This document shows, one piece after another, positions 869 to 20,867 of a stretch of DNA of 52,391 bases. Positions within the stretch are counted from its first letter, which is position 1. Every line of letters begins with the position of its first letter. Source of the DNA: Terriglobia bacterium (GTDB taxonomy: Bacteria; Acidobacteriota; Terriglobia; Terriglobales; Acidobacteriaceae); the NCBI GenBank assembly GCA_020073185.1, contig JAIQFT010000027.1:1-52391 (forward strand), read 5' to 3'. Position numbers and translations under genes: made by a program. The notes below the pieces were generated by a model. It was not told the origin of the DNA. It was given only the letters and a program-made list of their open reading frames with translations, and ran no database searches.

Positions 869-938
869 TCTCGGTCGATCAGTCGCTCGGTCTCTCGGCT
901 GCGCGGACCGACCGATAGACCGAAAGACCGACAGACCA
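869..938. repeat. Octamer array, rpsJ-rplC spacer
   Basis: Two arms of ~8-bp units. The 5' arm repeats CGGTCGAT/CAGTCGCT/CGGTCTCT. The 3' arm repeats AGACCGAA, AGACCGAC and AGACC. The arms are largely reverse complements around 900-905 and could fold into one long imperfect hairpin in the mRNA. Confidence 0.8.
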
Positions 939-1014
939 GAACAAAGCTTCCGCGATCTTCGGATCCCCGGCGCAAAACCATCGCCGGACTGGGAGCGGAG
1001 TTAGGGAAAAGAAC

Positions 1015-1746
1015 ATGGCTATCAACGGAATCTTGGGCAAGAAAGTCGGCATGACGCAGTTGTTCGACAGCAACGGCGACGTGCGTCCCGCCACCGTCCT
1101 GCAGGCCGGGCCCTGCGTAATCACGCAGCGCAAAACCGCCAACAAGGACGGCTACGAAGCGGCGCAGATCGGGCTCGTCGAGTTTGTCAAGGAGACGCGC
1201 CTCAACAAGCCGGCGCGCGGCCATCTCGGCAAGAACAACCTGCCGCCGGTGAAGTTCATGAAGGAAGTGGATGTGTTGGTGGACGGCGCGAGCGGCGACG
1301 GCGACCAGACCAAGGTTGGCGACCGCGTGCTGGTGGACATCTTCGACGGCGAGCGCTTCGTCGATGTCACCGGCACCAGCAAAGGACGCGGCTTCGCCGG
1401 CGTGGTCAAGCGCCATCATTTCCGCGGCGGCCCCAGTTCGCACGGCTCCATGTTCACCATCAACGGCTCGATCGGCGCCTCCGCGTTCCCGTCGCGCGTG
1501 TTTGCTGGGATGCGCATGGCGGGTCACATGGGCCACGCCCGCGTCACCACGCGCAACCTGCGCGTGCTCGGAATTGACAAGGACGAAAACCTGCTCGTGG
1601 TGGAGGGCGCGGTACCCGGCCCCGACGGCGCTTACGTGGTCATCAACAAGGCGAAGCGGGCTCCGCGCGAGCGCCGTGGTTTCGCCGGCACCGGCACGGT
1701 GGACCCGTTGAAGGCCTCCAAGCGCGCTACGAAGAAGAAATCATGA
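1015..1746 (+). CDS. rplC: 50S ribosomal protein uL3
   Basis: uL3 is a primary 23S rRNA binder near the peptidyl transferase centre. The 243-residue frame begins MAINGILGKKVGMTQLFD and has the signature FRGGPSSHGS and a GMRMAGHMG loop near residue 165. Its length is a little above the usual ~210 because of a Lys/Arg-rich C-terminus (KASKRATKKKS). The start follows a purine-rich AGGGAAAAG. A GC-rich hairpin separates it from rplD. Confidence 0.98.
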   Translation: MAINGILGKKVGMTQLFDSNGDVRPATVLQAGPCVITQRKTANKDGYEAAQIGLVEFVKETRLNKPARGHLGKNNLPPVKFMKEVDVLVDGASGDGDQTKVGDRVLVDIFDGERFVDVTGTSKGRGFAGVVKRHHFRGGPSSHGSMFTINGSIGASAFPSRVFAGMRMAGHMGHARVTTRNLRVLGIDKDENLLVVEGAVPGPDGAYVVINKAKRAPRERRGFAGTGTVDPLKASKRATKKKS

Positions 1747-1751
1747 TGTGG

Positions 1752-1771
1752 CGCGGGCGCCTTCGCCCGCG
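1752..1771. repeat. Perfect hairpin with CCTT loop, rplC-rplD spacer
   Basis: An 8-bp stem CGCGGGCG / CGCCCGCG closes a CCTT tetraloop. It lacks the T-run of an intrinsic terminator and lies inside the operon. The same plan (8-bp GC stem, CCCT or CCTT loop) recurs at 11733-11752, and a close relative lies at 13600-13621. Confidence 0.7.
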
Positions 1772-1791
1772 TGTACAACGAAGAGTCACTT

Positions 1792-2496
1792 ATGGCTACG
1801 ATTGACGTACTGAATCTGAGCGGCGAAAAAACCGGCAGCCTCGAGCTGGCCGACGAAGTCTTCGGCGCGGTCAACGAAGACCTCCTCTGGGAGGCGGTCA
1901 GGCACTACCGCGCGGCTCAGCGTGCCGGCACTCACGCCACCAAGAACCGCAAACTGGTTTCCGGTTCCGGCAAGAAGCTGTGGCGGCAGAAGGGCACCGG
2001 ACGCGCCCGCGTGGGCTCCATCCGCTCGCCCCTGTGGCGCCACGGCGGTACCGTGCACGGCCCGCAGCCGCGTTCCTACGACTACGGCTTCCCGCGCAAA
2101 AAGCTGCTGGGCGCATTGCGCTCCGCGCTGGCTTCCAAGCTGGCCGACGGCAAGCTGACCGTGGTCGAAAACTTCGATCTCGCCGGGGCCAAGACGAACG
2201 CCTTCCGCAAGGCGCTGGACGCCCTCAAAGTTGAGAGCACGGCGCTGGTGGTTGACGGCGCGAAGGCGAACCGCAACCTGGAGCTCAGTTCGCGCAACCT
2301 CGCCGGCATTGAACTGGTGCACAGCAATGTAGTTCATCCGTACCACCTGCTGCGCTACGACCGCGCCATCTTCTCCCGCCCCGCGCTGGAGAAGTTGCAG
2401 GACTCGCTCAAGAAGTCGGTGAGCAAGCGCCGGCATGAAGAGGGGTCCCCGACGCGCCGCGGGCGTGGCGGGGTGGTTGAGGAGGTCGCGTCATGA
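1792..2496 (+). CDS. rplD: 50S ribosomal protein uL4
   Basis: uL4 lines the exit tunnel of the 50S subunit. I use ATG 1792 (MATIDVLNLSGEKTGS), preceded by GAAGAG; an in-frame GTG at 1771 would add seven unlikely residues and overlaps a hairpin. Family landmarks are LWRQKGTGRARVGSIRSP and WRHGGTVHGPQPR, the long tunnel loop. At 234 residues it exceeds the usual ~205 because of a charged C-terminal tail (KRRHEEGSPTRRGRGG). The stop overlaps the rplW start as ATGA, which suggests translational coupling. Confidence 0.97.
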   Translation: MATIDVLNLSGEKTGSLELADEVFGAVNEDLLWEAVRHYRAAQRAGTHATKNRKLVSGSGKKLWRQKGTGRARVGSIRSPLWRHGGTVHGPQPRSYDYGFPRKKLLGALRSALASKLADGKLTVVENFDLAGAKTNAFRKALDALKVESTALVVDGAKANRNLELSSRNLAGIELVHSNVVHPYHLLRYDRAIFSRPALEKLQDSLKKSVSKRRHEEGSPTRRGRGGVVEEVAS

Positions 2497-2786: not shown

Positions 2787-2818
2787 CCGGCTTCAGGCTC
2801 CCGGCGCTAGGCGTCAGG

Positions 2819-2847
2819 GGCTAAGAGCTAATAGCTGAGAGCTGATT
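2819..2847. repeat. Heptamer array touching the rplB start codon
   Basis: Four degenerate heptamers, GCTAAGA GCTAATA GCTGAGA GCTGATT, run straight into ATG 2848. No GGAGG-like ribosome binding site lies between them and the start; GAGAG inside a unit is the nearest candidate. Confidence 0.85.
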
Positions 2848-3672
2848 ATGGCCATCAAGACATACCGACCGGTTACCTCGACGCTGCGCTTCCAGACCAC
2901 GCTGGTCAACGATGAGCTGACCACCAACCGGCCCCACAAGGCGCTGACCGAATCCAAGCAACGCACCGGCGGACGGCGCAACCAGGGCGACATCACCAGC
3001 CGGTTCCGGGGCGGCGGGCACAAGAAAAAGTACCGCCTCATCGACTTCAAGCGCGAGAAGGCGGGCGTTCCCGCCACCGTCATCTCCATCGAGTACGACC
3101 CCAACCGCTCGGCGCGCATTGCGCTGCTGAGCTACGCCGACGGCGAGAAGCGCTACATCCTTCAGCCCGACGGCCTCAAGCTGGGCGCCAAGGTTCTCAG
3201 CGGCCCCGACGCCGACATCCTGATCGGCAACGCGCTGCCGCTGCGCAACATCCCCCCCGGCACCATGGTGCACAACGTCGAGTTGCGTCCCGGCAAGGGC
3301 GCGCAGATGGCCCGCTCCGCTGGCGCTGCCGCGCAACTGGTCGCCAAAGAAGGCGATCACGCGCTGCTCAAGCTGCCCTCGGGCGAGACGCGCCGCGTCA
3401 TCGTGGACTGCATGGCCACCATCGGCCAGGTCGGCAACCTCGATCACGAGAACATTTCGATCGGCAAGGCGGGACGCACCCGCTGGTTCGGCAAGCGCCC
3501 GCACAACCGCGGCGTCGCCATGAACCCGGTGGACCACCCGCACGGCGGCGGTGAAGGCAAGACCTCCGGCGGACGTCACCCGGTGACTCCCTGGGGTCAG
3601 CCCACCCGCGGCTACAAGACGCGCAACAACAAGCGGACTGATAAGTTCATCGTCAACCGCCGCAGCAAGTAG
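2848..3672 (+). CDS. rplB: 50S ribosomal protein uL2
   Basis: uL2 is required for subunit joining and peptidyl transfer. The 274-residue product has the SH3-like and OB-like core and the C-terminal loop [16 protein letters not shown] with the conserved histidine, then [13 protein letters not shown]. Length is standard. The start codon directly follows the heptamer array, so initiation does not rest on a normal SD. Only 11 bases separate it from rpsS. Confidence 0.99.
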
Positions 3673-3683
3673 GAATCGAGATT

Positions 3684-4037
3684 ATGCGTTCACAAAAAAA
3701 AGGCCCCTTCATTGACGATTACCTGGCCAAGCGCATCGAGGCGATGAACCAGCGCAACGAGAAAAAGGTGCTCCGCACCTGGTCGCGGCGCTCCACCACC
3801 ATCCCCGAGATGGTCGGCCACACCATCGCGGTGCACAACGGCAAGAAGTTCATCCCGGTGTACATCACCGAAAACATGGTCGGGCACAAGCTGGGCGAGT
3901 TCAGCTTCACGCGCCAGTTCAAGGGACACTCGATGAGGGCCGCCACCGAGGTCGCCGCCAAGCCGGCCGGCGTGCCCGGAGGCCCCGGAGCCATCGTGCC
4001 TTCGGCCCCCGCGGCCCCCGCGGCCCCTAAGGCGTAG
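3684..4037 (+). CDS. rpsS: 30S ribosomal protein uS19 with Ala/Pro-rich tail
   Basis: uS19 binds 16S rRNA in the 30S head with uS13. Family blocks [17 protein letters not shown] and [16 protein letters not shown] are intact. After about residue 90 the protein continues for ~25 residues of low-complexity Ala, Pro and Gly (for example [12 protein letters not shown]) not present in the usual ~92-residue protein. It follows rplB by 11 bases and precedes rplV by 10. Confidence 0.98.
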
Positions 4038-4047
4038 AGAGGCGAAC

Positions 4048-4527
4048 ATGGAATTCACTAGCTCGGCTAAATACGTACGCGTTTCGCCGCAGAAGGCGCG
4101 CCTTGTCCTTGACCTGATCAAGGGACGCCGGGTCGAGGATGCCATCAACACGCTTACCTTTACCAAGAAAGGCATCGCCCCCGACGTCCAGAAAGTGCTG
4201 CGCTCGGCCCTGGAGAACGCCAATTATCTGAGCACGGAAAAGGGCATTGACGTCGATGTCGACAATCTCTTCGTGCTCCGCGCCGTCGCCAATGAGGGAC
4301 CGCGCATGAAGCGCATCCGCCCTGCCCCGATGGGACGCGCCTTCCGCTACCAGCGGCGCATGGCGCACATCGAGATCACTCTGGCGGAGAAGAACCGCAA
4401 CGCCGCCCCGGCGGAAACCCCGGACCAGGCTCACGCCGCCGCTCCGGCGCGCAAGCCGGTGCGCAAACCGGCGCTCAGGAAGAAGTCGCCCGTCAAGAAA
4501 TTCGCGGGCAAGGGAAAGAAGAGGTAG
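4048..4527 (+). CDS. rplV: 50S ribosomal protein uL22 with Lys/Ala-rich tail
   Basis: uL22 lines the exit tunnel, and its beta-hairpin carries the erythromycin-related loop. The core reads SSAKYVRVSPQKARLVLDLI, and the hairpin region MKRIRPAPMGRAFRYQRR is present. The usual protein is ~110-120 residues; this one is 159 because of a basic Ala/Pro/Lys extension (RKPVRKPALRKKSPVKKF). The tail probably contacts rRNA at the surface, an inference from composition only. Confidence 0.98.
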   Translation: MEFTSSAKYVRVSPQKARLVLDLIKGRRVEDAINTLTFTKKGIAPDVQKVLRSALENANYLSTEKGIDVDVDNLFVLRAVANEGPRMKRIRPAPMGRAFRYQRRMAHIEITLAEKNRNAAPAETPDQAHAAAPARKPVRKPALRKKSPVKKFAGKGKKR

Positions 4528-4535
4528 GTTTCTAG

Positions 4536-4567
4536 CTGTCGACCGCCGACCGTCGACTGTCGACCGA
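4536..4567. repeat. Heptamer array, rplV-rpsC spacer
   Basis: Four units, CGACCGC CGACCGT CGACTGT CGACCGA, one orientation only. GAGGA follows as a normal SD before rpsC, so here the array does not replace the ribosome binding site. Confidence 0.8.
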
Positions 4568-4579
4568 ATTTGAGGAACT

Positions 4580-5242
4580 ATGGGACAAAAAGTCCATCCA
4601 TACGGATTCCGCATCGGCTACACCAAGCCGTGGAAGTCGCGTTGGTTCATGACCCGCGACTACGCCAAGTTCTTGCTGGAAGACGTCAGGCTGAAAAATG
4701 AGCTCAAGGACAAGCTCAAGTCGGCCGGCGTCAGCTCCATCGAGATCGAGCGCCCCGGCAACAAGTTGCGCATCATCATCCGCACCGCCCGCCCGGGCAT
4801 CATCATCGGGCGCAAGGGGGCCGAGATCGACAAGCTCAAGGGTGAGCTGCAGAAGCGCACCAACCGCGATGTCTACATTGACATCCAGGAAGTGCACAAG
4901 CCCGAGCTCGACGCGCAACTGGTTTCCGAATCCATCGCCCTGCAACTGGAAAAGCGTGTCGGCTTCCGCCGCGCCATGCGCAAGTCGGTGGATTCCGCCC
5001 TGCGTTTCGGCTGCAAGGGCATCAAGGTGCGCGTCAGCGGCCGTCTGAACGGCAATGAAATCGCGCGCTCCGAGTGGTACCTGCAGGGACGCCTGCCGCT
5101 GCACACGCTGCGCGCCGACATCGATTATGGCTTCGCCGAAGCGCGCACCACTTATGGCGTCATCGGCGTGAAGTGCTGGGTTTACAAGGGCGAAATCCTG
5201 CCCTCCAAGAAACGCGACGCGCCGGCGGCGAGCGCGTTTTAG
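4580..5242 (+). CDS. rpsC: 30S ribosomal protein uS3
   Basis: uS3 forms part of the mRNA entry channel. The 220 residues start [17 protein letters not shown]. The type II KH domain shows [14 protein letters not shown] near residues 73-86, and the C-terminal domain has [13 protein letters not shown] and [13 protein letters not shown]. Length is standard. SD GAGGA lies six bases before the ATG. Confidence 0.99.
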
Positions 5243-5245
5243 GGA

Positions 5246-5395
5246 AGCTGTCAGCTCTCAGCCATCAGCGGTCAGACTGACTGGCATGAAGGTTGACAGA
5301 TTAGGTTTCGGGTGTGGCGCACAGAATTTTGGAGCAGCGCACACCTGAGAGTACGACGAACAGGCTGCAAGCTGAGAGCTGATAGCTGAGAGCTT
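5246..5395. repeat. Paired inverted heptamer arms, rpsC-rplP spacer
   Basis: The 5' arm (5246-5280) reads AGCTGTC AGCTCTC AGCCATC AGC. The 3' arm (5364-5395) reads GCTGAGA GCTGATA GCTGAGA GCT, its near reverse complement. About 85 bases separate them, so the pair could close a large stem-loop just before rplP. No gene is seen in the loop. Confidence 0.8.
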
Positions 5396-5399
5396 ATTT

Positions 5400-5822
5400 A
5401 TGTTGATGCCAAAGAAAGTGAAGTACCGCAAGCAGCAGCGCGGACGCATGGCCGGCAAGGCCTGGCGCGGCAGCGAGCTGGCCTTCGGCGATTACGGTCT
5501 CAAGGTCATGGAGTGCGGCCACATCACCGACCGCCAGATCGAAGCCAGCCGTATTGCCATGACCCGCTTCGTCAAGCGCGGCGGAAAAATCTGGTTGCGC
5601 CTGTTTCCCGACAAGCCGGTCACCAAGAAGCCGGCTGAAACCCGCATGGGAAAGGGCAAGGGCGCGCCCGACCACTGGGTTGCCGTCGTCCGTCCGGGCA
5701 AAATTCTGTTCGAGATGGAAGGCGTCACCCCCACCGATGCCCGCGAAGCCATGCGCCTGGCCTCGCACAAGCTGCCGCTGCGGACGCGTTTCGTCGAGCG
5801 CCACGGCGCCGGAGCGCATTGA
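5400..5822 (+). CDS. rplP: 50S ribosomal protein uL16
   Basis: uL16 organises the A-site tRNA binding region of the 50S subunit. The 140 residues begin [19 protein letters not shown], the exact family opening, so I keep ATG 5400 rather than ATG 5406. [12 protein letters not shown] is the conserved Gly/Lys loop. The 3' arm of the array ends five bases before the start and no purine-rich SD is visible. Confidence 0.99.
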
Positions 5823-5825
5823 TGG

Positions 5826-5906
5826 TCGTCGGTTCTCGGTTTTCGGTTCACGGCACTCCGAGCTGAAAGCTTACTTGATAACCGACAACCGATAACCGAC
5901 AACGAG
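5826..5906. repeat. Inverted heptamer arms, rplP-rpmC spacer
   Basis: The 5' arm repeats TCGGTTC TCGGTTT TCGGTTC; the 3' arm repeats AACCGAC AACCGAT AACCGAC. The two are reverse complements around a ~25-base centre. The array ends seven bases before rpmC, where only GAGAA could act as an SD. Confidence 0.85.
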
Positions 5907-5913
5907 AATTGAT

Positions 5914-6120
5914 ATGGATGCCGAGAAAATTCGCAATTTGACCGACGTCGAACTCAAGCAGCAGGAGCGCGAACTCAACGATCAGCTCTTCCGCCTCAAG
6001 TTCCAGCTCAACATGGGCCAGACCGAGAGCCTGAAGAAGATCCGCGGCCTGCGCAGGGACATCGCGCGCGTCAAGACCATCGCGCGCCAGCGCCAGATGG
6101 CCGCCACGGAGAAGTCATAA
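5914..6120 (+). CDS. rpmC: 50S ribosomal protein uL29
   Basis: uL29 is a two-helix protein near the tunnel exit next to uL23. The 68 residues contain [20 protein letters not shown] and the basic second helix [15 protein letters not shown]. Length is normal. The TAA stop shares a base with the ATG of rpsQ (TAATG), indicating coupled translation. Confidence 0.98.
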
Positions 6121-6452
6121 TGCCGGAACCCACTACGACGGAAAAAACTTCGGCCCGCAAGACGCTGGTCGGCGACGTGGTTTCGACCAAGATGCGGAAG
6201 ACCATCGTTGTCGAAGTCACGCGTAAGAAGTCGCACCACCTCTACGGCCGCGTGATCGCGCGCTCGCGCCGTTTCTACGCGCACGACGAGAACAACACCG
6301 CCAACGTCGGCGATGTCGTCCGCCTGGAAGAAACCCGCCCGCTCTCCAAGCTGAAGCGCTGGCGGCTGAAGGATGTTATTCGCCGCGCCAAGCTGGTCGG
6401 CCCCGAGGCGGTCACGCCCGGCGCGGTTGAGCAGCCCGGCGCCTCGCAGTAG
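6120..6452 (+). CDS. rpsQ: 30S ribosomal protein uS17
   Basis: uS17 is an OB-fold 16S rRNA binder. The core [19 protein letters not shown] and the signature [18 protein letters not shown] are intact. At 110 residues it is longer than the usual 80-90, with short extensions at both ends ([13 protein letters not shown] in front, a Gly/Ala/Pro tail behind). It overlaps rpmC by one base and ends the S10-like block before a hairpin-rich spacer. Confidence 0.98.
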
Positions 6453-6461
6453 TCGGTTGTA

Positions 6462-6597
6462 GGTCATGACTTCAGTCATGACCGAGGCGCGAAGCGCCGA
6501 CCAGGTAGGTCATGACTTCAGTCATGACCGAACGCTGGTAGCCCAGGGCGGCAGCCCTGGGAATAGGTCGGAGCAGATTGCTGAGTCCCGTAGGGAC
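6462..6597. repeat. Palindromic hairpin cluster, rpsQ-rplN spacer
   Basis: Two copies of a 22-base hairpin (GGTCATGAC / GTCATGACC, TTCA loop) lie at 6462-6483 and 6508-6529. A third hairpin follows at 6542-6561 (CCCAGGGC / GCCCTGGG, GGCA loop), then a small hairpin GTCCC GTA GGGAC at 6585-6597. The TTCA loop matches that of the 340-359 hairpin while the stem is completely different. Confidence 0.85.
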
Positions 6598-6625
6598 GGC
6601 CCGATCTGAGTTAGGGAGATTGAAG

Positions 6626-6997
6626 ATGGCAGTCATGATGCGAACCATGCTCGACGTCGCCGACAACTCCGGCGCGCGCAAGCTCCAGATGATCTTGCCC
6701 CTCGGCGGCTCCACCGGGCTCAGCGCCGGCCTCGGTGACGTGATCACCGCCAGCGTCAAGGAAGCTTCGCCCGACGGCACGGCGAAAAAGGGGACGGTGG
6801 TCAAGGCGGTGGTGGTGCGCACGCGCAAGGAACACCGCCGCCGCGACGGCACCTACATCCGCTTCGATCAGAACGCGGCGGTGCTGATCAACGACGCGCA
6901 CGAGCCCATCGGTACCCGCGTCTTCGGCCCTGTCGCCCGCGAGTTGCGCGAGAAGAAGTTCCTGAAGATCGTCTCGCTCGCACCGGAAGTACTCTAG
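6626..6997 (+). CDS. rplN: 50S ribosomal protein uL14
   Basis: uL14 forms inter-subunit bridge B8. ATG 6626 gives a 123-residue protein of normal length that begins [20 protein letters not shown]; an in-frame TTG at 6578 would run back into the hairpin cluster and is rejected. GGGAG eight bases upstream is a plausible [17 protein letters not shown] and [13 protein letters not shown] are family landmarks. The last base of the stop codon is the first base of hairpin module 2. Confidence 0.98.
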
Positions 6998-7181
6998 CCG
7001 CGGAGCGGCGGTTGAAAGTAGCCCGGCACTTTAATGCCGGGATGAGAACGGATTAAACAGCCAGTCCCGTGGGGCCGGCTGAGGCAGAGAGAGCCCCGCA
7101 GGGGCGACAGTTGATAGCCCGGCACGTGAGTGCCGGGGAAGAGGGATCTCATCGAGGACCCGAGTGCCGCAGGGACGGCAC
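6997..7181. repeat. Composite palindrome module 2 (rplX leader)
   Basis: This is the second copy of the module seen at 315-485. Hairpins in order: small 6997-7009, large 7022-7041 (CCCGGCA / TGCCGGG), small 7064-7076, small 7093-7105 (GCCCC GCA GGGGC), large 7118-7137 (CCCGGCAC GTGA GTGCCGGG), small 7164-7181 (GTGCCG / CGGCAC). Intervals of 25, 42, 29, 25 and 46 bases compare with 25, 41, 25, 25 and 42 in module 1. No gene is seen here. Confidence 0.85.
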
Positions 7182-7193
7182 AGGAAAACGATT

Positions 7194-7520
7194 ATGCAAC
7201 GAGTACACAGGGATATTCGCCGCAACGACACCGTGAAGGTAATCACCGGCCGCGACCAGGGCAAGCAAGGCCGCGTGCTCCGCGTCTTCCCCGAAGAGGG
7301 CAAGCTGCTGGTCGAGCATGTCATGGTGGCCAAGAAACATGTGCGGCCCAATCCGCAGCGCAACGTCAAGGGCGGCATCGCCGAGCAGGAGAGCCGGATT
7401 TCGATCTCCAACGTGATGCTGCTGTGCGGCGCCTGCGGCCCGGTGCGTATCCGCCACGAGGCGCGCGGCGACCGCAAGGTGCGCGTCTGCGCCAAGTGCG
7501 GCACGACGCTGGAGAAATAG
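7194..7520 (+). CDS. rplX: 50S ribosomal protein uL24, zinc-ribbon form
   Basis: uL24 is an early assembly initiator of the 50S subunit. ATG 7194 (MQRVHRDIRRNDTVKV) follows AGGA by eight bases; an upstream in-frame start at 7164 lies in a hairpin. The KOW motif reads VKVITGRDQGKQGRVL. The C-terminal part has two CxxC pairs (LLCGACGPVR and RVCAKCGTTL), as in the zinc-binding subset of uL24. Length is 108 residues. Confidence 0.97.
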   Translation: MQRVHRDIRRNDTVKVITGRDQGKQGRVLRVFPEEGKLLVEHVMVAKKHVRPNPQRNVKGGIAEQESRISISNVMLLCGACGPVRIRHEARGDRKVRVCAKCGTTLEK

Positions 7521-7580
7521 TCGTTAGTCGCTTGTCGTTGGTCGTTAGCAACCCGGCCAACGATTAACGACCAACGACAA
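7521..7580. repeat. Inverted heptamer arms, rplX-rplE spacer
   Basis: The 5' arm is built on TCGTTAG, TCGCTTG, TCGTTGG and TCGTTAG. The 3' arm is AACGATT AACGACC AACGACA. They pair around a nine-base centre (ACCCGGCCA), giving a compact hairpin of ~60 bases just after the rplX stop. Confidence 0.85.
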
Positions 7581-7640
7581 ATTGAACACCTCACGAACCG
7601 GTACCCACTCCGAAACCGTGAGAGGAAGAAGTCGAGAGCC

Positions 7641-10318: not shown

Positions 10319-10320
10319 GA

Positions 10321-13448: not shown

Positions 13449-13469
13449 CCACATCTTAGGAAGTATGTG

Positions 13470-13579: not shown

Positions 13580-13599
13580 TGTTCTGAGAAATTGCGTGG

Positions 13600-13704: not shown

Positions 13705-13710
13705 GCTTTC

Positions 13711-14403
13711 ATGTTAAACAAAACGATTGGCCCTATCATCCTGTTGGGGGCACCCGGCGCCGGCAAGGGAACACAAGCGAAGCTCATTGTCGAGCGTTAC
13801 GGCGTGCCCCAGATCTCCACTGGAGATCTGCTGCGCGACCATGTCTCGCGCGCCACCGAGCTCGGCAAGCAGGCCAAGGCCATCATGGACCGCGGCGAGC
13901 TGGTTCCCGACGACCTGGTCAACAATATGGTCGCCGAGCGCCTCTCCCGCCCCGATACGGCACGTGGGTTTATACTGGACGGTTATCCGCGCACCGTGGC
14001 TCAGGCCCAGTGGCTGGACATGTACTTGCCCGGCAAGGTCTTTGAAAATCAGGGAGATTACAAGCTTCCCCCGGTTGTGATCGACATCGCGCTGGGATAT
14101 AATCAACTACTACGTCGGCTCACCGGTCGGCGCTCTTGTCCCACCTGCGGGCGTATTTACAACGTGTACTTCCAGCCTCCCCGCGTTGCTGATCTCTGCG
14201 ACGTTGATGGCGCGAAGCTTGTTACACGCCGTGACGATTGCGAGGAAGTGATCTCCGAACGTCTCAGGGCTTACCAGCGGCAGACCCTGCCTCTGGCTGG
14301 TTTTTACCGCGCCAAGGGACAGTTGGTCGAGGTCAACGGGGACCAGGACGCCAGCGCCGTCAGTCGAGACGTGCTGAAAGTGATTGATGGCCATCGTTTG
14401 TAA
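13711..14403 (+). CDS. adk: Adenylate kinase
   Basis: Adk interconverts ATP + AMP and 2 ADP in the cytoplasm. ATG 13711 (MLNKTIGPIILLGAPGAGKG) gives 230 residues; an in-frame ATG at 13669 lies in repeats. The P-loop is GAPGAGKGTQ, the AMP site STGDLLRDHV and FILDGYPRT. The LID is the long zinc type: C-P-T-C with a later Cys and Asp (LCDVDG). Its end overlaps map by 17 bases. No clear SD is seen; GAAACC-type repeats precede it. Confidence 0.98.
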   Translation: MLNKTIGPIILLGAPGAGKGTQAKLIVERYGVPQISTGDLLRDHVSRATELGKQAKAIMDRGELVPDDLVNNMVAERLSRPDTARGFILDGYPRTVAQAQWLDMYLPGKVFENQGDYKLPPVVIDIALGYNQLLRRLTGRRSCPTCGRIYNVYFQPPRVADLCDVDGAKLVTRRDDCEEVISERLRAYQRQTLPLAGFYRAKGQLVEVNGDQDASAVSRDVLKVIDGHRL

Positions 14404-15139
14404 ATCGCCGTCCGAGCTGGACAAGATGCGCGCTTCGGGCCGCATCGTGCGTCAGGTGCTGGACACGGTCCGCGCCATGGTCGAGCCCGGGGTCACCACC
14501 ATGGACCTGGAGCGGGCGGCGGAGAAGAAGATCAAGGAACTCGGCGCCAAGCCGGCCTTCAAGGGTTATTACGACTACCCTTGCGTGCTGTGTACCTCGG
14601 TTAATCAGGAGATCGTCCACGGCATTCCGTCGCCGAAACGGATGCTCAAGGACGGCGATATAGTCTCCATTGACTGCGGCGTCGTGCTCGACGGCTATTA
14701 TGGTGACGCGGCCATTACCGTGCCGGTGGGCGACAAGCTCGCCCCCGACGTGCAGAAGCTTCTGGAAGTCACGGAAGCCTCGCTTTACCGCGGCATCGCC
14801 GCCGCCCGCATTGGCAATACCGTGGGCGACGTCGGCGCCGCCGTGCAGGAATTGGTCGAGGCCAACGGCTTCAGCGTGGTGAGAGAATTTGTCGGCCATG
14901 GCATCGGGACGCGCTTGCACGAAGATCCGCAGGTCCCCAATTACGGTACCCGCGGACACGGCGCTCGGCTGCGCGAAGGCATGGTGATCGCCATCGAGCC
15001 CATGGTTAATGCCGGCACTCCCGGCGCCCGCGTGCTCGACGACAAGTGGACCGCAGTGACCGAAGACGGCAGCTTTAGCGCCCACTTCGAGCACTGCGTC
15101 GCCGTTACCACCGACGGCCCCCTGATTCTGACCCAGTAG
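14387..15139 (+). CDS. map: Methionine aminopeptidase, type I
   Basis: Map removes the initiator methionine from nascent proteins. ATG 14387 (MAIVCKSPSELDKMRASGRI) is chosen over the TTG three bases upstream. The five metal ligands of the pita-bread fold are readable: two Asp in SIDCGVVLDGYYGDAAITV, His in EFVGHGIGTRLHEDP, Glu in AIEPMVNAG and Glu in HFEHCVAVT. The 250 residues are typical. It starts inside the end of adk, so the two are co-translated. Confidence 0.98.
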   Translation: MAIVCKSPSELDKMRASGRIVRQVLDTVRAMVEPGVTTMDLERAAEKKIKELGAKPAFKGYYDYPCVLCTSVNQEIVHGIPSPKRMLKDGDIVSIDCGVVLDGYYGDAAITVPVGDKLAPDVQKLLEVTEASLYRGIAAARIGNTVGDVGAAVQELVEANGFSVVREFVGHGIGTRLHEDPQVPNYGTRGHGARLREGMVIAIEPMVNAGTPGARVLDDKWTAVTEDGSFSAHFEHCVAVTTDGPLILTQ

Positions 15140-15200
15140 TGGTCAGTGGCCAGTTTTTGAAAACGCTACCTGAAGGCTGAGAGCTAAAAGCTAAAAGCTG
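15140..15200. repeat. Repeat arrays, map-infA spacer
   Basis: A short GGTCAGTGGCCAG run (15140-15153) is followed by CTGAGAG CTAAAAG CTAAAAG CTG (15175-15200), an AGCTRAG-type heptamer array. GGAG follows as SD for infA. Confidence 0.75.
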
Positions 15201-15212
15201 TTTTGGAGTTGA

Positions 15213-15431
15213 ATGAGTAAAGAAGACGCGATTGAAGTCATGGCGGTGGTCATCGAGCCGCTGCCCAACGCAATGTTCAAGGTCGAACTGGAAAACAAGC
15301 ACCAGGTACTGGCGCACGTTTCCGGAAAGATGCGCAAGAACTTCATTCGTATTTTGCCCGGCGATCGGGTCGCGGTGGAGCTTTCTCCCTACGACCTCAC
15401 CCGCGGGCGCATTGTGTATCGCTACAAATAG
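15213..15431 (+). CDS. infA: Translation initiation factor IF-1
   Basis: IF-1 occupies the 30S A site during initiation. The 72 residues are the full S1/OB fold: [39 protein letters not shown] and [23 protein letters not shown] lies six bases before the ATG. Its place between map and rpmJ is the common bacterial order. Confidence 0.99.
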
Positions 15432-15446
15432 GTTTGCGTTTTCATG

Positions 15447-15498
15447 TGGCCACTGGCTACTGGCCACTGGCTCTGGAAATTAGAAACTGGAAACTACA
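15447..15498. repeat. Repeat arrays touching the rpmJ start
   Basis: GGCCACT GGCTACT GGCCACT GGCTCT is followed by GAAATTA GAAACTG GAAACTA CA and the rpmJ ATG. Two unit families are joined in one spacer and no SD is visible. Confidence 0.82.
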
Positions 15499-15612
15499 AT
15501 GAAAGTTCGGGCTTCAGTTAAAAAGATTTGCGACAAGTGCAAAGTCATCCGCCGCAAGGGCGTGGTGCGGGTGATTTGCGAAAACACGAAACATAAACAA
15601 CGCCAGGGATAA
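15499..15612 (+). CDS. rpmJ: 50S ribosomal protein bL36, zinc form
   Basis: bL36 is the smallest 50S protein, added late in assembly. The 37 codons read [20 protein letters not shown] and end KHKQRQG. Zinc ligands C11, C14, C27 and H32 are present. It lies between infA and rpsM as expected. The start codon follows a GAAACTA repeat with no normal SD. Confidence 0.98.
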
Positions 15613-15667
15613 CGGTTCGCGTCATCGGCCCATCACCGATAACCGAGAGCCGATAACCGACAACGAG
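15613..15667. repeat. Heptamer arms, rpmJ-rpsM spacer
   Basis: A short 5' part (ACGGTTCGCGTCATCGG) faces a 3' run of ACCGATA ACCGAGA GCCGATA ACCGACA ACGAGG. GAGGT at the end of the array can act as SD for rpsM. Confidence 0.78.
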
Positions 15668-15672
15668 GTTTT

Positions 15673-16059
15673 ATGGCCAGAATTGCCGGCGTGGACCTTC
15701 CGCGCAACAAGCACACTCGCATCGCGCTGACTTACATCTACGGCATCGGACACCCGCGCTCCGCCCGCATCCTGGCGGCCGCCAACGTGGATGGCGCCAA
15801 GAAGGTGCAGGACCTCAACGAAGAAGAGGTCAACCGTATCCGCCAGGTCATTGAGGGCGAAGGCAACGTTGAGGGCGACCTGCGTAAGGACGTCTCGATG
15901 CACATCAAGCGCCTGATCGAGATCGGCTCGTATCGCGGCTTCCGTCACCGCCGCAACTTGCCGGTTCGCGGCCAGCGCACCCATACCAACGCGCGCACTC
16001 GCAAGGGCCCGCGTAAAGGCACCGTGGCCGCCAAGAAGAAGACCGCCACGAAAACCTAA
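15673..16059 (+). CDS. rpsM: 30S ribosomal protein uS13
   Basis: uS13 contacts the P-site tRNA and bridges to the 50S subunit. The 128 residues have [20 protein letters not shown], the helix-two-turns-helix region and the basic tail signature [18 protein letters not shown]. The C-terminus is Lys-rich (KKKTATKT). Length is normal. Confidence 0.99.
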
Positions 16060-16152
16060 TCGGTGATCGGTTTTCGGTTCTCGGTTTTTGGCTTGAAGGC
16101 CGATGCCGAGAAGCCGATGACCGATACCCGACAACCGAACACCGAGAACCAG
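16060..16152. repeat. Inverted heptamer arms, rpsM-rpsK spacer
   Basis: The 5' arm TCGGTGA TCGGTTT TCGGTTC TCGGTTT pairs with a 3' arm of GCCGATG ACCGATA CCCGACA ACCGAAC ACCGAGA ACC. The array ends two bases before the rpsK ATG. The only SD-like bases are GAG within the last unit. Confidence 0.85.
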
Positions 16153-16153
16153 A

Positions 16154-16585
16154 ATGGCGAAACCAGCAGAAGCGACCGTTGCCGGAGCACCGGCGAAAAA
16201 AGGCAAGACCAAGAAGTTCAAGAAGCGTGAGCGCAAGAATGTCCCCTTTGGCGTCGCTCACATTCAGGCGTCGTTCAACAACACCATCGTGACCATCTCC
16301 GACCATCAGGGCAACGTGCTCTCCTGGAAGAGTTCGGGATCGCTGGGCTTCCGCGGATCGCGCAAGGGTACGCCCTTTGCCGCGCAGCAGGCCGCCATGA
16401 ACGCCGCCAACATGGCGCGCGAGCACGGCCTCCGCGCGGTGGAAGTCCGTGTCAGCGGACCCGGTTCGGGCCGCGAGTCGGCCATCCGGGCGCTGGCCGC
16501 CGCTGGCATCGAGGTGCGTCAGATCAAGGACGTCACCCCCATGCCGCACAACGGCTGCCGTCCGCCGAAACGGCGCAGAGTGTGA
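16154..16585 (+). CDS. rpsK: 30S ribosomal protein uS11
   Basis: uS11 lies on the 30S platform by the E site. The core starts around residue 30 ([20 protein letters not shown]) and contains [20 protein letters not shown] and the end [20 protein letters not shown] Lys/Ala-rich N-terminal lead of ~28 residues brings it to 143 against ~130. Confidence 0.98.
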
Positions 16586-16677
16586 ATTTGCGATTTAGCG
16601 ATTGAGGGATTCAGTGATTGACCCGTTGTGGCGTTTTCCAATCGCTCAATCACGAATCACTAAATCACTAACTGAAG
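16586..16677. repeat. AATCACT-type inverted arms, rpsK-rpsD spacer
   Basis: The 5' arm (GCGATTTAGCGATTGAGGGATTCAGTGATTG, in 7-8 bp steps) faces CAATCGCTCAATCACGAATCACTAAATCACTAAC. It is more AT-rich than other arrays. A further 56 bases without repeats lead to rpsD. Confidence 0.8.
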
Positions 16678-16733
16678 CAATCGGGACGAAGGGATGGCCA
16701 ATCCTGTAAACCGATTCATGAAGGAGAAGAACA

Positions 16734-17363
16734 TTGGCTCGATACACAGGTGCAGTCTGCCGCCTTTGCCGCCGCGAAGGCATGAAGCTCTTCCTTAAAG
16801 GGGCGAAGTGCTTCAGCGATAAATGCCCCATCGAAAACCGCAACTTTGCTCCCGGTCAGCACGGCAAGGACCGCAAGGCAAAGATCGTCGGCTACGGCCT
16901 GCAGTTGCGCGAGAAGCAGAAAGCCAAGCGCATCTACTTCACCAACGAAGGCCAGTTCCGCAACTATTACGAAAAGGCGGCGCGCGCCAAGGGCGTCACC
17001 GGCGAAGTGCTCCTGCAGCAACTGGAGCGCCGTCTCGACAACGTCGTTTACCGTCTCGGCTTTGCGGCCTCGCGCCGCCAGTCGCGCCAAGTGGTGCGCC
17101 ACGGCCACATCCAGGTCAACGGCCGCAAGGTGGACATTCCCTCGTACCAGGTGAAGCCCGGCGACGAGATCGCGGTGCGTGAGACTAGCCGGAAAGTGCC
17201 GGTCATCCTCGCCGCCGTCGAGTACAGCAGCCATCAACCGACGCCCAACTGGCTCGAGATCGACCGCGAGAATCTCAAGGGCCGCGTCATTGCGGTCCCG
17301 AAACGCGAAGACGTGAATCTGCCCGTCAACGAGCAGCTCATCGTCGAACTGTACAGCAAGTAA
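16734..17363 (+). CDS. rpsD: 30S ribosomal protein uS4, zinc (C+) form, TTG start
   Basis: uS4 nucleates 30S assembly. The frame starts at TTG 16734, eight bases after AAGGAG, giving [20 protein letters not shown]9, C12, C26 and C31 form the zinc knuckle of C+ type uS4. The S4 RNA-binding domain reads [20 protein letters not shown] with [15 protein letters not shown]. The 209 residues are standard. Confidence 0.98.
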
Positions 17364-17454
17364 TCGGCTCTTTTTGCCGATTGCATAATCGGGTAACTGC
17401 GGAATCGGGCAATTGAAATCAATTACCCGATTACCCGATTCGACGATTCCGCAA
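17362..17454. repeat. ATTACCCG octamer arms, rpsD-rpoA spacer
   Basis: The 5' arm has ATCGGGTAACTGCGGAATCGGGCAATTG; the 3' arm has CAATTACCCGATTACCCGATT and CGACGATTCCGCA. Units are eight bases. About 100 bases without an evident feature follow before rpoA. Confidence 0.8.
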
Positions 17455-17557
17455 TGAACCCGGCCCCATTCGTGCCAGATCAGGCCCGTGCGACGATCCA
17501 CTTCAGGCCTGGGCCGCCTGAGGATGTCGCCTCGACCCGCATGGCCGAAGGAGAACT

Positions 17558-18586
<1,029 letters not shown>

Positions 18587-18591
18587 CTTTT

Positions 18592-18669
18592 ATCGGGTGA
18601 TCGGATGATCTGGTGATTTGAACACCGGAATTCGATCACCCGATCACCCGATGGCCAGATCACCGGATT
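18592..18669. repeat. GATCACCC octamer arms, rpoA-rplQ spacer
   Basis: The 5' arm (ATCGGGTGATCGGATGATCTGGTGATT) faces GATCACCC GATCACCC GATGGCCA GATCACCG. The array ends ~30 bases before rplQ, which has its own AAGGA. Confidence 0.85.
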
Positions 18670-18699
18670 GGCACGGGGCCATGAATAAGGATTGAAACC

Positions 18700-19212
18700 A
18701 TGCGTCACTTAAAAGCTGGCAAGAAACTCGGCCGTAACACCAGCCACCGTCGCGCCCTGCTGCGCAACCTGGTCACTTCGCTCATTCTCGAAGAGCGTAT
18801 CCAAACCACCGAACCCAAGGCCAAGGCCATGCGCCCGCACGTCGAGAAGATGATCACCCTCGGCAAGCGTGGCGACGTCGCCGCCCGCCGCCTCGCCGCC
18901 TCCTACCTGATGACGCGCGCCGCCGTCGACAAGCTCTTCGACACCGTCGCGCCCCGCATGGGCGACCGCAACGGGGGCTATCTGCGCATCATCCGCACCG
19001 GTTGGCAGAAGGGCGACGGCGCCGAAAAGGCCTTTGTCGAGCTGCTCGGCAGCGAGAAAGCCATTGCCGAGAAGCAGCACAAGCGCGCCGAAGCCCGTGC
19101 CAAGCGCCGCGAGGAAGCCAAGAAGGCGATGGAAGAAGCCGAAGCCCAGGCCGCCCCGGAAGCCTCGGCCGAACCCGAACCCAAACCCGAAACCAAGGGC
19201 GAAAAAGAGTAG
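18700..19212 (+). CDS. rplQ: 50S ribosomal protein bL17 with Ala/Glu/Lys tail
   Basis: bL17 sits near the tunnel exit. The core MRHLKAGKKLGRNTSHRRAL and ASYLMTRAAVDKLFD is intact, with GGYLRIIRTGWQKGDGA. After residue ~118 it continues with a charged coiled-coil-like stretch and an Ala/Pro/Glu tail (KAMEEAEAQAAPEASAEPEP), giving 170 residues against ~120. It closes the alpha operon and is followed by a strong GC hairpin. Confidence 0.98.
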   Translation: MRHLKAGKKLGRNTSHRRALLRNLVTSLILEERIQTTEPKAKAMRPHVEKMITLGKRGDVAARRLAASYLMTRAAVDKLFDTVAPRMGDRNGGYLRIIRTGWQKGDGAEKAFVELLGSEKAIAEKQHKRAEARAKRREEAKKAMEEAEAQAAPEASAEPEPKPETKGEKE

Positions 19213-19262
19213 AGGAACCAATCCTCTAATCCGACTCCCGTGCCAGTTTTTGTTGTTTAGTA

Positions 19263-19285
19263 GGCCCCGGCGCCTCGCCGGGGCC
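19263..19285 (+). terminator. Strong hairpin after rplQ, possible terminator
   Basis: GGCCCCGGCG CCT CGCCGGGGCC is a perfect 10-bp stem 50 bases after rplQ. The downstream sequence is GGGCTTTCC, so the T-run is weak. It may end the superoperon with help from Rho, or may be another member of the GC hairpin family; the sequence does not decide. Confidence 0.5.
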
Positions 19286-19369
19286 GGGCTTTCCTTGCCG
19301 AAACTCTCGATGCCGCGGGCGCCCTCGAACGCGGCTACCAGCCTTCGGCCCCCAACTACTGCATTCCCA

Positions 19370-19398
19370 TTCTGAAACCGAAACTGAAACTCAAACTC
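19370..19398. repeat. GAAACT array upstream of the LTxxQ gene
   Basis: Units TGAAACC GAAACT GAAACT CAAACT, mostly hexamers. It lies in the 253-base spacer after rplQ, which otherwise holds only the GC hairpin and a degenerate GCGGGCG-type palindrome near 19315-19335. Confidence 0.65.
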
Positions 19399-19465
19399 CC
19401 TTCGCAACTTTCCTCGCCGGCAACCGTTTTTATGACTAACACCTGAATCGAAGGAGAGCGTAATT

Positions 19466-20125
19466 ATGCGGGCATTTACCCGAATTTCTATCGCCCTGTT
19501 GTTGACCACCCTTCTCGCCGCCGCTCTGTCGGCACAAACCACGACGCCGCCAGCCGATAACGCCCCTGGTCCGCATCGCATGGGTGCCATGAGCCAGCGC
19601 GGCTTCGAGCACATGGCACAGCAGCTCAACCTCACTGACCAGCAGAAGGCCCAGATCCAGGGCCTCTTCCAGACCCAGCGCACGCAGGCCCTGTCCATTC
19701 GGCAGGACAGCTCGCTGACGCCGCAGGAGAAGCAAGATAAGTTCCGCCAGCTCCGCGAATCCACCCACCAGCAAGTCACGGCGGTGCTGACCGCCGAACA
19801 GCAGCAGCAACTGCAGCAGATGCGCGCACATCACGAACGCATGGGCGGTGGTATGGGCCCGTTCGCGCGCCTCAACCTCACCTCCGACCAGAGGTCCAAG
19901 ATCGAGCCGCTCCTCCAGTCTCAGCGCCAGCAGGTCCAGGCAGTGCGCCTGGACAGCTCGCTGACGCCGGAGCAGAAGCAGGCCAAGGTGCGCGACATCC
20001 GCCAGAGCACGAAATCGCAGATTGATGCCGTGCTCACGCCCGAGCAGCAGCAGCAACGCAAGGAGATGTGGAGAGGCCGCGGCGGCAAGCACGGCCCTCC
20101 GCCCGCGCCGCCCAGCGGCTTTTAA
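19466..20125 (+). CDS. Secreted LTxxQ-repeat protein (Spy/CpxP-like), internally duplicated
   Basis: The 219 residues begin with a signal peptide (IALLLTTLLAAALSA, cut before Gln). The mature part is two tandem copies of one helical unit: LNLTDQQKAQIQGLF...SSLTPQEKQDKFRQLRES...LTAEQQQQL (about 53-117) and LNLTSDQRSKIEPLL...SSLTPEQKQAKVRDIRQS...LTPEQQQQR (about 135-200). LTxxQ motifs are typical of the Spy/CpxP group of periplasmic stress proteins and chaperones, so an envelope role is likely; the partner is unknown. The C-terminus is Gly/Pro-rich. SD AAGGAGAG is strong. Confidence 0.8.
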   Translation: MRAFTRISIALLLTTLLAAALSAQTTTPPADNAPGPHRMGAMSQRGFEHMAQQLNLTDQQKAQIQGLFQTQRTQALSIRQDSSLTPQEKQDKFRQLRESTHQQVTAVLTAEQQQQLQQMRAHHERMGGGMGPFARLNLTSDQRSKIEPLLQSQRQQVQAVRLDSSLTPEQKQAKVRDIRQSTKSQIDAVLTPEQQQQRKEMWRGRGGKHGPPPAPPSGF

Positions 20126-20245
20126 CTAGCATCGGATCTCGACTGGTGACAAACCGCGTTCTCCCTCGAACGCGCTTTGTCGTAGCCTGTGATTTCTGCG
20201 ATCTCTGCGGTGTGGGTGCTGGCTGCGCCGAAGCTGCGGAAAAGC

Positions 20246-20340
20246 AGCAATTGGCAATCTGCAATTAGCCAATCGAGATTACCGAAAACCGATAACCGGC
20301 AACCGAGAACCAGCTAATCGCTAATTCCTAATCGCTAAAA
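20246..20340. repeat. ACCGATA and CTAATCG arrays between convergent genes
   Basis: ACCGAAA ACCGATA ACCGGCA ACCGAGA ACC (20281-20312) is flanked by GCAATTGGCAATCTGCAATT and by CTAATCG CTAATTC CTAATCG CTAAA. It fills the space between the LTxxQ gene (+) and the VanZ-like gene (-). Confidence 0.78.
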
Positions 20341-20833
20341 ACTTCCCTCGCGCATCGCTCACCGCGATCAGTAACAACTGCACGCACGCCGCCGCCATCG
20401 CGTCCAACGCGACGTCGCGCATGGTTCCGGTTCGCTCGGGAAGCATGGTCTGGTGCCATTCGTCGAGCGCCGCCACCACAACGGTTGACGCCAGCGCGAT
20501 CGCCGCCGCGCGCGCGCTCCAGGAACGCAGCATCGCCTTCCATGACGGCAACTGCTTTGCCCAGCGCGGCAGCATCAGGGTTGTCCACCACGCCCGCAGC
20601 ATAAGCAGACTGAGAATGGCATAACCGGCGAAATGCCCTGCTTTCCGCGCCACCTCATTGATGAGTTGAAGTTGTGCAAGTGCGATGTGCAGATCGAAAA
20701 AACCGATGATGGAAGAAAAAACGTCTCCAGTATCGTCCGACGAGGCGTACGGCGTGGACTCCCACGCGATCACGGCCAGCCACAGCAGGGCAGGCGCCCA
20801 GGCTCGGCGAACAGCGTCGGATGTGCTGGGCAT
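20321..20833 (-). CDS. VanZ-like membrane protein
   Basis: The 170-residue protein has four predicted membrane helices. Motifs typical of VanZ-like proteins are readable: EVARKAGHFAGYAILSLLML in the middle and ALDEWHQTMLPERTGTMRDV near the C-terminus. VanZ from a transposon gives low teicoplanin resistance, but most chromosomal homologues have no known role, so I assign only the family. It lies downstream of guaB on the same strand, and its start codon directly follows a TTAGCAA heptamer array with no SD. Confidence 0.8.
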   Translation of the reverse strand: MPSTSDAVRRAWAPALLWLAVIAWESTPYASSDDTGDVFSSIIGFFDLHIALAQLQLINEVARKAGHFAGYAILSLLMLRAWWTTLMLPRWAKQLPSWKAMLRSWSARAAAIALASTVVVAALDEWHQTMLPERTGTMRDVALDAMAAACVQLLLIAVSDARGKFLAIRN

Positions 20834-20867
20834 TAGCTAATTGCTAATTGCTAAAAGCTAGTAGCTA
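20834..20867. repeat. TTAGCAA array in the guaB-vanZ spacer
   Basis: Read on the minus strand the spacer is TAGCTACTAGCTTTTAGCAA followed by TTAGCAA TTAGCTA and the ATG of the VanZ-like gene. It overlaps the guaB stop codon. This shows the arrays also lead genes on the other strand. Confidence 0.78.

Follow-up and report, generated by a model that had tools for sequence, protein, structure and literature searches.

The DNA analysed here (hereafter the window; 52,391 nt) is contig C27 of a 4.66-Mb genome in 121 contigs, and it encodes a ribosomal protein S3 with 98% identity to the one found in a metagenome-assembled genome (MAG) of Terriglobia (Acidobacteriota). The window carries the S10, spc and alpha operons, followed by a gene of the LTXXQ family, vanZ and guaB; a second block of translation genes has the order rplM-rpsI-rpsB-tsf-pyrH-frr. 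Ten window proteins were checked against Pfam, most other gene names were assigned from gene order and homology, and the genes of all loci were called by a simple custom script with imprecise start codons. The S10-spc-alpha gene order up to rplQ was kept in the genomes G001 and G003 (same genus), and a contig of G002 had the same order up to rpsH. The proteins encoded from rpsJ to rplQ were 80–100% identical between the window and these three genomes. The spacers of the operons contain short tandem arrays, in which a word is repeated roughly three to six times at a fixed spacing of 7 nt, less often 8. These arrays, within which a conserved word and a freely varying letter can be told apart, are the subject of this work.

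The arrays were detected by ungapped self-match scoring for each period from 4 upwards, with thresholds of 10 or 11; a stricter scoring (mismatch -2, threshold 13) lacked sensitivity, recovering only six period-7 arrays from the window spacers. At threshold 10, the window spacers contained 27 period-7 arrays (26 at threshold 11), all of which fell within 2789–20860 or 33976–36582. Between tuf and guaB, an array of period 6–8 was present in 24 of the 29 spacers of at least 15 bp, and three further array spacers were rplM-rpsI, rpsI-rpsB and tsf-pyrH. This agrees with the original prediction, made from the letters alone, that repeats of 7–8 bases fill most spacers of the translation operons. When the window spacers were pooled with those of a further 400 kb, period 7 dominated at threshold 11 with 26 + 35 matches and harmonics at 14 and 21, next to a weaker peak at period 8 (7 + 12 matches), compared with 0–2 matches per period, and none at period 7, in one set of shuffled spacers. 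Coding DNA (384 kb) yielded three period-7 matches at the same threshold, and the 6.9 kb of non-coding DNA in the S10-str region of Escherichia coli contained no array of period 7 or 8. Among relatives, 80 named operon loci (L029–L108) taken from many assemblies contained 662 period-7 and 146 period-8 arrays, against 1–10 for any other period from 4 to 13, and period-7 arrays occurred in 68 of the 80 loci. An assembly artefact is unlikely as the source, since four genomes bearing AGCTGAN arrays have contigs of more than 1 Mb and the 80 loci come from many assemblies. One AGCTGAN pattern was present sporadically, in 42 of 247 genomes of the phylum; in G112, a reversed control matched as often as the pattern. 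We found no description of such arrays in Acidobacteria in the open literature, subscription papers being outside the scope of the search.

All window arrays are given on the plus strand. Inverted octamer arrays were located in rpsJ-rplC (867–940, arms 871–898 and 910–937, GACCGANA type; predicted fold -32 kcal/mol, z -2.7), rpsK-rpsD (16586–16671, AATCAC type), rpsD-rpoA (17380–17455, ATTACCCG type) and rpoA-rplQ (18592–18668, GATCACCC type). Inverted heptamer arrays of the AACCGAN family occupied rplP-rpmC (5824–5903, where the predicted fold consists of 6–7 bp helices broken by single mismatches), rplE-rpsN (8336–8397) and rpsM-rpsK (16060–16150, best stem 16060–16094 with 16111–16145, z -7.8). 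The remaining inverted arrays were those of rpsC-rplP (5245–5395, arms 5245–5279 and 5361–5395), of the AGCTGAN family, which G001 and G002 share at this place, rplX-rplE (7521–7581, TCGTTNG / AACGACN), rplR-rpsE (10321–10389, AACGACN) and tsf-pyrH (36469–36582, GAAACTN); the segment 36446–36583 around the last had a z of -9.1 and also contains a separate GC-rich hairpin followed by T. The CGACCAN family was represented in rpsN-rpsH (8698–8726), rplF-rplR (9894–9916) and rplO-secY (11848–11913, several arrays), and AGCT words in rplW-rplB (2789–2845, AGCTNAN units at its end), rpmD-rplO (11169–11199, AGCTAAN / AGCTGAN, adjoining the rplO start codon at 11200), map-infA (15170–15199, AGCTNAN) and rplM-rpsI (33976–34009, AGCTAAN). 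Other arrays were found in rplV-rpsC (4540–4564, GTCGACC type), rpsH-rplF (9231–9315, with period 8 at 9231–9255 and period 7 at 9282–9315), secY-adk (13350–13382, AAGAAGT), infA-rpmJ (15447–15471, GGCCACT / GGCTACT), rpmJ-rpsM (15629–15664, AACCGAN), the spacer before vanZ (20247–20311, GCAATTN and AACCGAN mixed) and vanZ-guaB (20836–20860, GCTAATN). Hexamer arrays of CTGAAA lay downstream of rplQ (19362–19398) and in rpsI-rpsB (34503–34535). The GCTAATT arrays of vanZ-guaB and of another locus of the same genome (L020, 1867–1931) appear to mark a slippage-type end of the range, one of the two consisting of some nine units that are almost perfect.

Units of the commonest families combine a 6-nt word with a single wildcard letter. 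The 688 period-7 arrays of the window and the 80 loci comprised 133 canonical heptamer units, the ten commonest making up 49%. Neighbouring units of the AGCTGAN family (118 arrays, 259 neighbour pairs) differed in 31, 5, 2, 10, 7, 3 and 78% of cases at positions 1–7, the differences at position 1 being mostly A/G. The difference at position 7 was 0.78 for AGCTGAN, 0.82 for AGCTAAN, 0.79 for AGCTAGN and 0.63 for AACGACN; AACCGAN (17 pairs) behaved like AGCTGAN, and AACTGAN reached 43% at its wildcard. When another position was omitted during unit assignment, as a leave-one-out control, position 7 still differed in 41–70% of cases. Identical neighbouring wildcards were below expectation in AGCTAA (14/90, expected 0.32, p 4e-4) and AGCTAG (17/95, p 0.003), slightly rarer than composition predicts in AGCTGA and no different in AACGAC. 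Neighbours were more alike than expected in CGACCAN (14 arrays; identical at the seventh position 0.82 vs 0.40) and, to a lesser degree, in GAAACTN (0.39 vs 0.29) and AACTGAN (0.60 vs 0.52); the CGACCAN arrays look like slippage products. The arrays differ in this respect from REP/RAYT elements, the copies of which have one palindromic sequence in common by descent. Among within-family array pairs of the window's own genome, 14 of 306 shared a three-letter wildcard run, compared with 17.5 after shuffling, which weakens the earlier suggestion of a propagating repeat; within single operon loci there was a small excess (61/579 vs 47.8).

Arrays were present in 625 of 1326 co-directional operon spacers, and 361 of these spacers had an array-based stem (median stem 29 nt, median loop 19 nt, loop range 3–128 nt). 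The centre between paired arrays of opposite orientation was mostly 5–60 nt. In the two translation blocks of the window, 11 of 28 co-directional spacers contained an array-based inverted repeat; the predicted arm-centre-arm layout is thus frequent, but calling it constant was too strong. Six window spacers folded with z from -2.7 to -9.1. When at least 20 nt of the spacer were free, 192 of 230 hairpins lay nearer to the stop codon of the preceding gene than to the start of the next one, at a median distance of 6 nt from the stop versus about 21 for random placement; the 3' arm ended at a median of 18 nt before the start codon (361 hairpins, single arrays being unscored). The A-richer arm was the downstream one in 301 of 339 untied hairpins of the operon loci and in 47 of 69 hairpins outside the window (47 vs 22), and in divergent spacers the orientation of this arm toward the nearest start was absent (5 vs 5).

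Stem mismatches at word positions comprised 158 G-U and 161 A-C (14 vs 27 elsewhere in the genome), and when registers were set by the words alone, wildcards paired from arm to arm in 31% of cases compared with 33% in neighbouring registers. A test in which one register was favoured in 246 of 309 cases used arms pre-chosen for pairing and is biased, as are the pairing values of 191 assigned hairpins (77–96% at word positions, 40% at wildcards), whose arms were also chosen for pairing. Double changes that kept a Watson-Crick pair were found at 100 of 8749 pair sites in the true register and at 60 of 10994 at 7 nt off, and 850 of 1210 one-sided stem changes broke the pair, wildcards being included in both counts. 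In addition, 264 of the 625 array-bearing spacers gave no array-based stem. Since unpaired arrays were equally constrained (see below), G-U mismatches were no commoner than A-C and the wildcards were unpaired, we conclude that cis pairing does not maintain the word, even though paired double changes were twice as frequent as in the shifted register.

Comparisons between species indicated what is maintained instead: in the alignable arrays, the conserved part is the word, not the hairpin pairing. In a third-party design, one species supplied the wildcard phase and a further two were compared with each other (554 comparisons that partly share species). Wildcards diverged by 0.397 and words by 0.111, compared with 0.27 for the rest of the spacer and 0.402 for fourfold degenerate sites in the same pairs of species. 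This design replaced the measurement of wildcard divergence against the phase-defining array, which is biased. In a pairwise test, with the phase set by one of the two compared species and only 44 wildcard sites in the first bin, wildcard divergence climbed over five bins of fourfold divergence (0.25, 0.30, 0.38, 0.45, 0.46) and word divergence stayed flat at 0.06–0.11. The excess was absent at a pseudo-wildcard phase (0.085 vs 0.131). Word divergence was 0.103 in the 35 arrays without an inverted partner, 0.137 in the 92 with a partner and 0.123 in the 21 in between.

The arrays as wholes were far less stable. At rpsJ-rplC, G001 and G002 share an AGCTGAN hairpin, and the GACCGANA family of the window was not found at this spacer in either of them; the sequence just downstream of the hairpin is conserved between the window and G002. 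The rplX-rplE spacer contains AACGACN arrays in the window, arrays of the AAATTAC type in G001 and G002, and AATTACCCG in G003, and three families occupy rpoA-rplQ, namely the GATCACCC type in the window, the GAAACT type in G001 and the AACGACN type in G003. Two further groups of close relatives showed switching and swaps of single arms, and also spacers that kept their family. Among 33 spacer pairs with an array at a fourfold divergence below 0.2, 30% had the same family and 33% different families, while in 36% just one of the two spacers had an array; for two arrays drawn at random, the chance of a common family is 21%. Whole arrays were replaced by arrays of another word faster than point divergence would do. 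The family switching described in the original prediction was supported: families change from locus to locus and, at orthologous spacers, from species to species.

Two pairs of close relatives (fourfold divergence 0.13), each with an outgroup, yielded 25 lineage-specific arrays that were lacking in both sister and outgroup. In the 24 that could be scored, the difference between neighbouring units was 0.79 at whichever position varied most and 0.12 at the others. As this choice of position biases the statistic upwards, simulated nulls were used: perfect arrays reached 0.53 after 7% substitution and 0.63 after 10% (highest of 300, 0.67 and 0.77), and about 20% substitution was needed for 0.81. 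A looser earlier list, based on two genomes with no outgroup, gave 0.78, and at least one of its arrays, L034 rpsE-rpmD, has a near copy in L030 below threshold. The majority of new arrays thus seem unlike recent products of slippage, although the arrays tested are small; slippage simulations of six hand-picked arrays of the looser list (P 0.009–0.11) were suggestive only. Two new arrays were examined for a source. The best full-length match of one of them in its own genome was 80%, and single arms had matches of 93–96% over 25–32 nt. For the rplX-rplE hairpin, no full-length near copy was found in its own genome, and it was matched in 45 of 150 family genomes. The best matches of the two arrays in these 150 genomes, with at most six candidates scored per genome, were 82% and 90%, and both came from G002. 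Such values do not point to copying, since about 89% is expected for equal words with random wildcards. The kind of array differed between lineages. In G064 (8.3 Mb, another acidobacterial family; L211–L213), inverted heptamers of the GACTGAG type were near-perfect, with a neighbour difference of 0.13 at the most variable position and a hairpin in 10 of 10 array spacers, and a third acidobacterial family was intermediate (0.50).

The rest of the genome was represented by seventy 20-kb stretches (1.4 Mb of 4.66 Mb), a non-random sample of contigs C1–C15 that excludes the contig of the window, and spacers of 35–600 bp were counted. Arrays were found in 137 of 547 spacers between co-directional genes, in 21 of 125 between convergent genes and in 18 of 151 between divergent genes, and array hairpins in 74 of 547, 8 of 125 (p 0.03) and 11 of 151 (p 0.05), respectively. 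A near absence of hairpins from convergent spacers, suggested by a first sample (1/54), was weakened accordingly. Array share among co-directional spacers rose with codon adaptation, across quartiles from 10% to 37% when the gene upstream was ranked (p 4e-8) and from 13% to 38% when the one downstream was. In the window, 21 of 28 translation spacers had arrays, significantly more than the co-directional spacers of the genome (Fisher p 1e-7) and than those of the top codon-adaptation quintile (44/110, p 0.0013). The original prediction had tied the arrays to translation genes and reported none elsewhere in the window. The enrichment was upheld, the exclusiveness was not; within the window the arrays were indeed confined, with 0 of 12 other co-directional spacers bearing one and no period-7 array in the spacers of 22.4–33.9 kb and 36.6–52.4 kb by the self-match scan, which also found nothing near position 49626, where a doubtful two-unit remnant had been suspected. 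In soil Acidobacteria, the arrays lie between genes, most often beside highly codon-adapted ones.

Taken together, the constrained word, the neutral wildcards, the transcription-oriented placement and the codon-adaptation trend point to a function at the level of the repeated word. We tentatively favour the reading that the arrays are putative multivalent recognition sites in the intercistronic regions of expressed operons. The repeated word would be recognised, on DNA or on nascent or messenger RNA, by a putative nucleic-acid-binding factor, and this recognition may help to mark off or adjust single cistrons within busy operons. A large choice of words could be tolerated if avidity stems from the regular 7-nt spacing of the repeats and not from a particular sequence. 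New arrays would arrive complete, either from unsampled donors or through a synthesis that copies the word but not the wildcard. Several observations weigh against this reading. The recognising factor is hypothetical, and 123 distinct words among 467 arrays are hard to reconcile with one sequence-specific protein. Of the 80 loci, 12, including short ones, lacked a period-7 array, so that the feature is dispensable. For the 28 co-directional spacers ranked in the top 5% by codon adaptation, array share dropped back to 0.32. Divergent and convergent spacers bear arrays as well, and there the codon-adaptation trend was absent (p 0.89 and 0.17); codon adaptation may also be a marker of core rather than expressed genes. 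A single free wildcard is not the general rule: CGACCAN, GAAACTN and ACCTGAN have a second variable position, and AAATTAC does not fit the scheme. Mismatch concentration over all operon-locus arrays was moderate (0.517 vs a null of 0.433; 0.456 vs 0.409 in the rest of the genome), and the word-plus-wildcard claim is therefore strongest for the common families. Finally, the alignability filter drops replaced arrays, so that word conservation was measured among survivors, and the cross-species comparisons share species, so that their p-values overstate independence.

The results argue against simple slippage, inverted duplication or selection for RNA pairing being enough to explain the arrays, although those of CGACCAN resemble slippage products. 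Alternatively, the arrays could be non-functional tracts tolerated in spacers, created as heptamers by slippage or replication errors and then decaying, with the enrichment reflecting old, stable core spacers. The near-perfect arrays of G064 are what slippage predicts, the alike neighbours in CGACCAN and, less so, in GAAACTN and AACTGAN point the same way, the arrays are dispensable, and heptamers have been described as the most frequent kind of long simple repeat, and widely so (Mrazek 2007, cited in PMC4679880 and PMC4692102). However, neighbouring wildcards in the four commonest families were no more alike than chance, and less so for AGCTAA and AGCTAG, lineage-specific arrays were more variable than perfect arrays simulated with 7% or 10% substitution, though not than those with about 20%, and words diverged at about a quarter of the wildcard rate. 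Neutral litter leaves the slower words unexplained, unless survivor bias exceeds what the third-party design allows, and we regard this explanation as somewhat unlikely. An intercistronic RNA hairpin, comparable to REP elements or RNase III sites, would fold from the inverted arrays in mRNA and set the stability or insulation of cistrons, with the word repeated solely because inverted copies of it always find a partner. The array-based stems, the folding of the six window spacers, the position just past stop codons with the A-rich arm downstream, the higher frequency in co-directional spacers and the excess of pair-keeping double changes are consistent with such a role. The missing wobble preference, wildcards that pair no better than in neighbouring registers, the many pair-breaking one-sided changes, words equally constrained in unpaired arrays and the array spacers with no stem all speak against it. 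The mRNA hairpin role proposed in the original prediction is thus weakened, although the stems do fold well; it is possible but unlikely, lacking the expected wobble and wildcard-pairing signals.

The replacement of arrays might be plain homologous recombination, in which whole spacers bearing old arrays are imported from other species via the conserved flanking ribosomal protein genes. This would account for wildcards that are already scrambled in new arrays, for the missing full-length near copy of the rplX-rplE hairpin in its own genome and for families common to many genomes. On the other hand, the swaps appeared tight, with flanks conserved a few bases off the array at rpsJ-rplC and rplX-rplE; in L029, the leader upstream of rplE is conserved except that its loop contains an AGCTGAN array; and a near-identical donor was not found for two new arrays among the candidates scored in the 150 family genomes. 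We consider this account somewhat unlikely. Even less probable, in our judgement, is a dedicated writer that would copy the 6–7 nt word and add one untemplated nucleotide per turn, in both orientations and de novo in the spacers of expressed operons, the finished words then being kept by selection for repeat recognition; the simulated nulls and the CGACCAN exception lower its odds.

Several other observations were made in and around the arrays. The three commonest words, AGCTGA, AGCTAG and AGCTAA, consist of AGC plus each of the three stop codons, and 47% of 407 A-rich period-7 arrays (L029–L108) stop all three frames, compared with 20% when unit positions were permuted. All-frame stops were rejected as a general purpose, being enriched in A-rich period-7 arrays (0.090 vs 0.050 per nt permuted) but depleted in period-8 arrays. 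Contigs labelled viral in IMG/VR (L132–L161) included 30 stretches with the AGCTGAN pattern and 167 intergenic period-7 arrays. Leader-like inverted repeats with no Rfam match were located upstream of rplE (7585–7630, CCTCACGAACCGG...CCGAAACCGTGAGAGG) and rpsH (8735–8780, GGTTCTC...GAGAGCGAACGGGC) and were kept across relatives while the adjoining arrays changed. The S14 protein encoded by rpsN (8411–8674) of the window and of G001 has an extra cysteine-rich stretch of the CPAC...CLIC type, about 25 residues long, near the N-terminus, which G002 and G003 lack. Acido-Lenti-1 RNA (RF01687) was the sole Rfam family in the window at gathering score, with five matches (314–359, 405–450, 6996–7041, 7092–7137 and, on the minus strand, 13621–13666), none of them on a heptamer array; a sixth, weak match was located at 6507–6561. 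By eye, elements of this kind come and go among G000, G001, G002 and G003. Like the arrays, Acido-Lenti-1 RNA is a hairpin element that lies in spacers of this kind within these operons, but it is a defined 46-nt family, and the heptamer arrays have no Rfam match at gathering score.

Among known systems, a close likeness was found in Geobacter metallireducens, where paired tandem octa- and heptanucleotides have been described as 'global regulator binding sites', putatively for IHF/HU (PMC2700814). These consist of 3–5 degenerate tandem units of 7–8 nt (GTTGCTYN, TCTCCGTS, MTYCTGA) in opposite-strand pairs at variable distance, an arrangement also seen in the stems and loops reported above, and in G. 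sulfurreducens the proBA spacer is occupied by a different multicopy sequence (PMC2700814). The Geobacter sites form three classes (8, 21 and 24 pairs) and a fourth set, whereas the present arrays comprise the 133 canonical units, are dense in translation operons and have a replacement that was measured across species. The P6b stem of the Nostoc trnL intron likewise consists of complementary 7-nt repeats that include N positions (Class I TDNGATT, Class II NNTGAGT) and undergoes wholesale class replacement with its structure kept (PMC4476775), but it concerns one intron locus and two classes rather than dozens of protein-gene spacers with many words; stems of this design occurred in 361 of our 625 array-bearing co-directional spacers. 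The TAACTGA repeats of Beggiatoaceae, cyanobacteria and Bacteroidetes, which our AACTGAN family parallels, have period 7, are intergenic and include several in ribosomal protein operons (PMC4679880). Their unit is fixed, and repeats of related heptamers are rare; the main genome has 169 direct sets and a single indirect one. They have no predicted structure and a position mostly just upstream of start codons, unlike the hairpins described here. The G-rich heptamers of Xanthomonas and Nostoc are also intergenic, close to one neighbouring open reading frame (ORF) and variable among relatives, with some inverted pairs in Xanthomonas; they are a single quadruplex-forming unit, and most repeats stay between the same genes (PMC4692102).

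In conclusion, the present case joins known features on a genome scale, and what is new is the evolution of word and wildcard together with the measured replacement. The wholesale replacement is striking, ribosomal protein operons being among the most conserved gene orders. The earlier heptamers of cyanobacteria, Xanthomonas, Geobacter and Beggiatoaceae had been left as likely slippage products or as sites of unknown regulators. A conserved word with a neutral wildcard provides a built-in neutral control inside each array, so that the question of litter or function becomes testable by counting, and in these bacteria the counts point to the word rather than to the hairpin.

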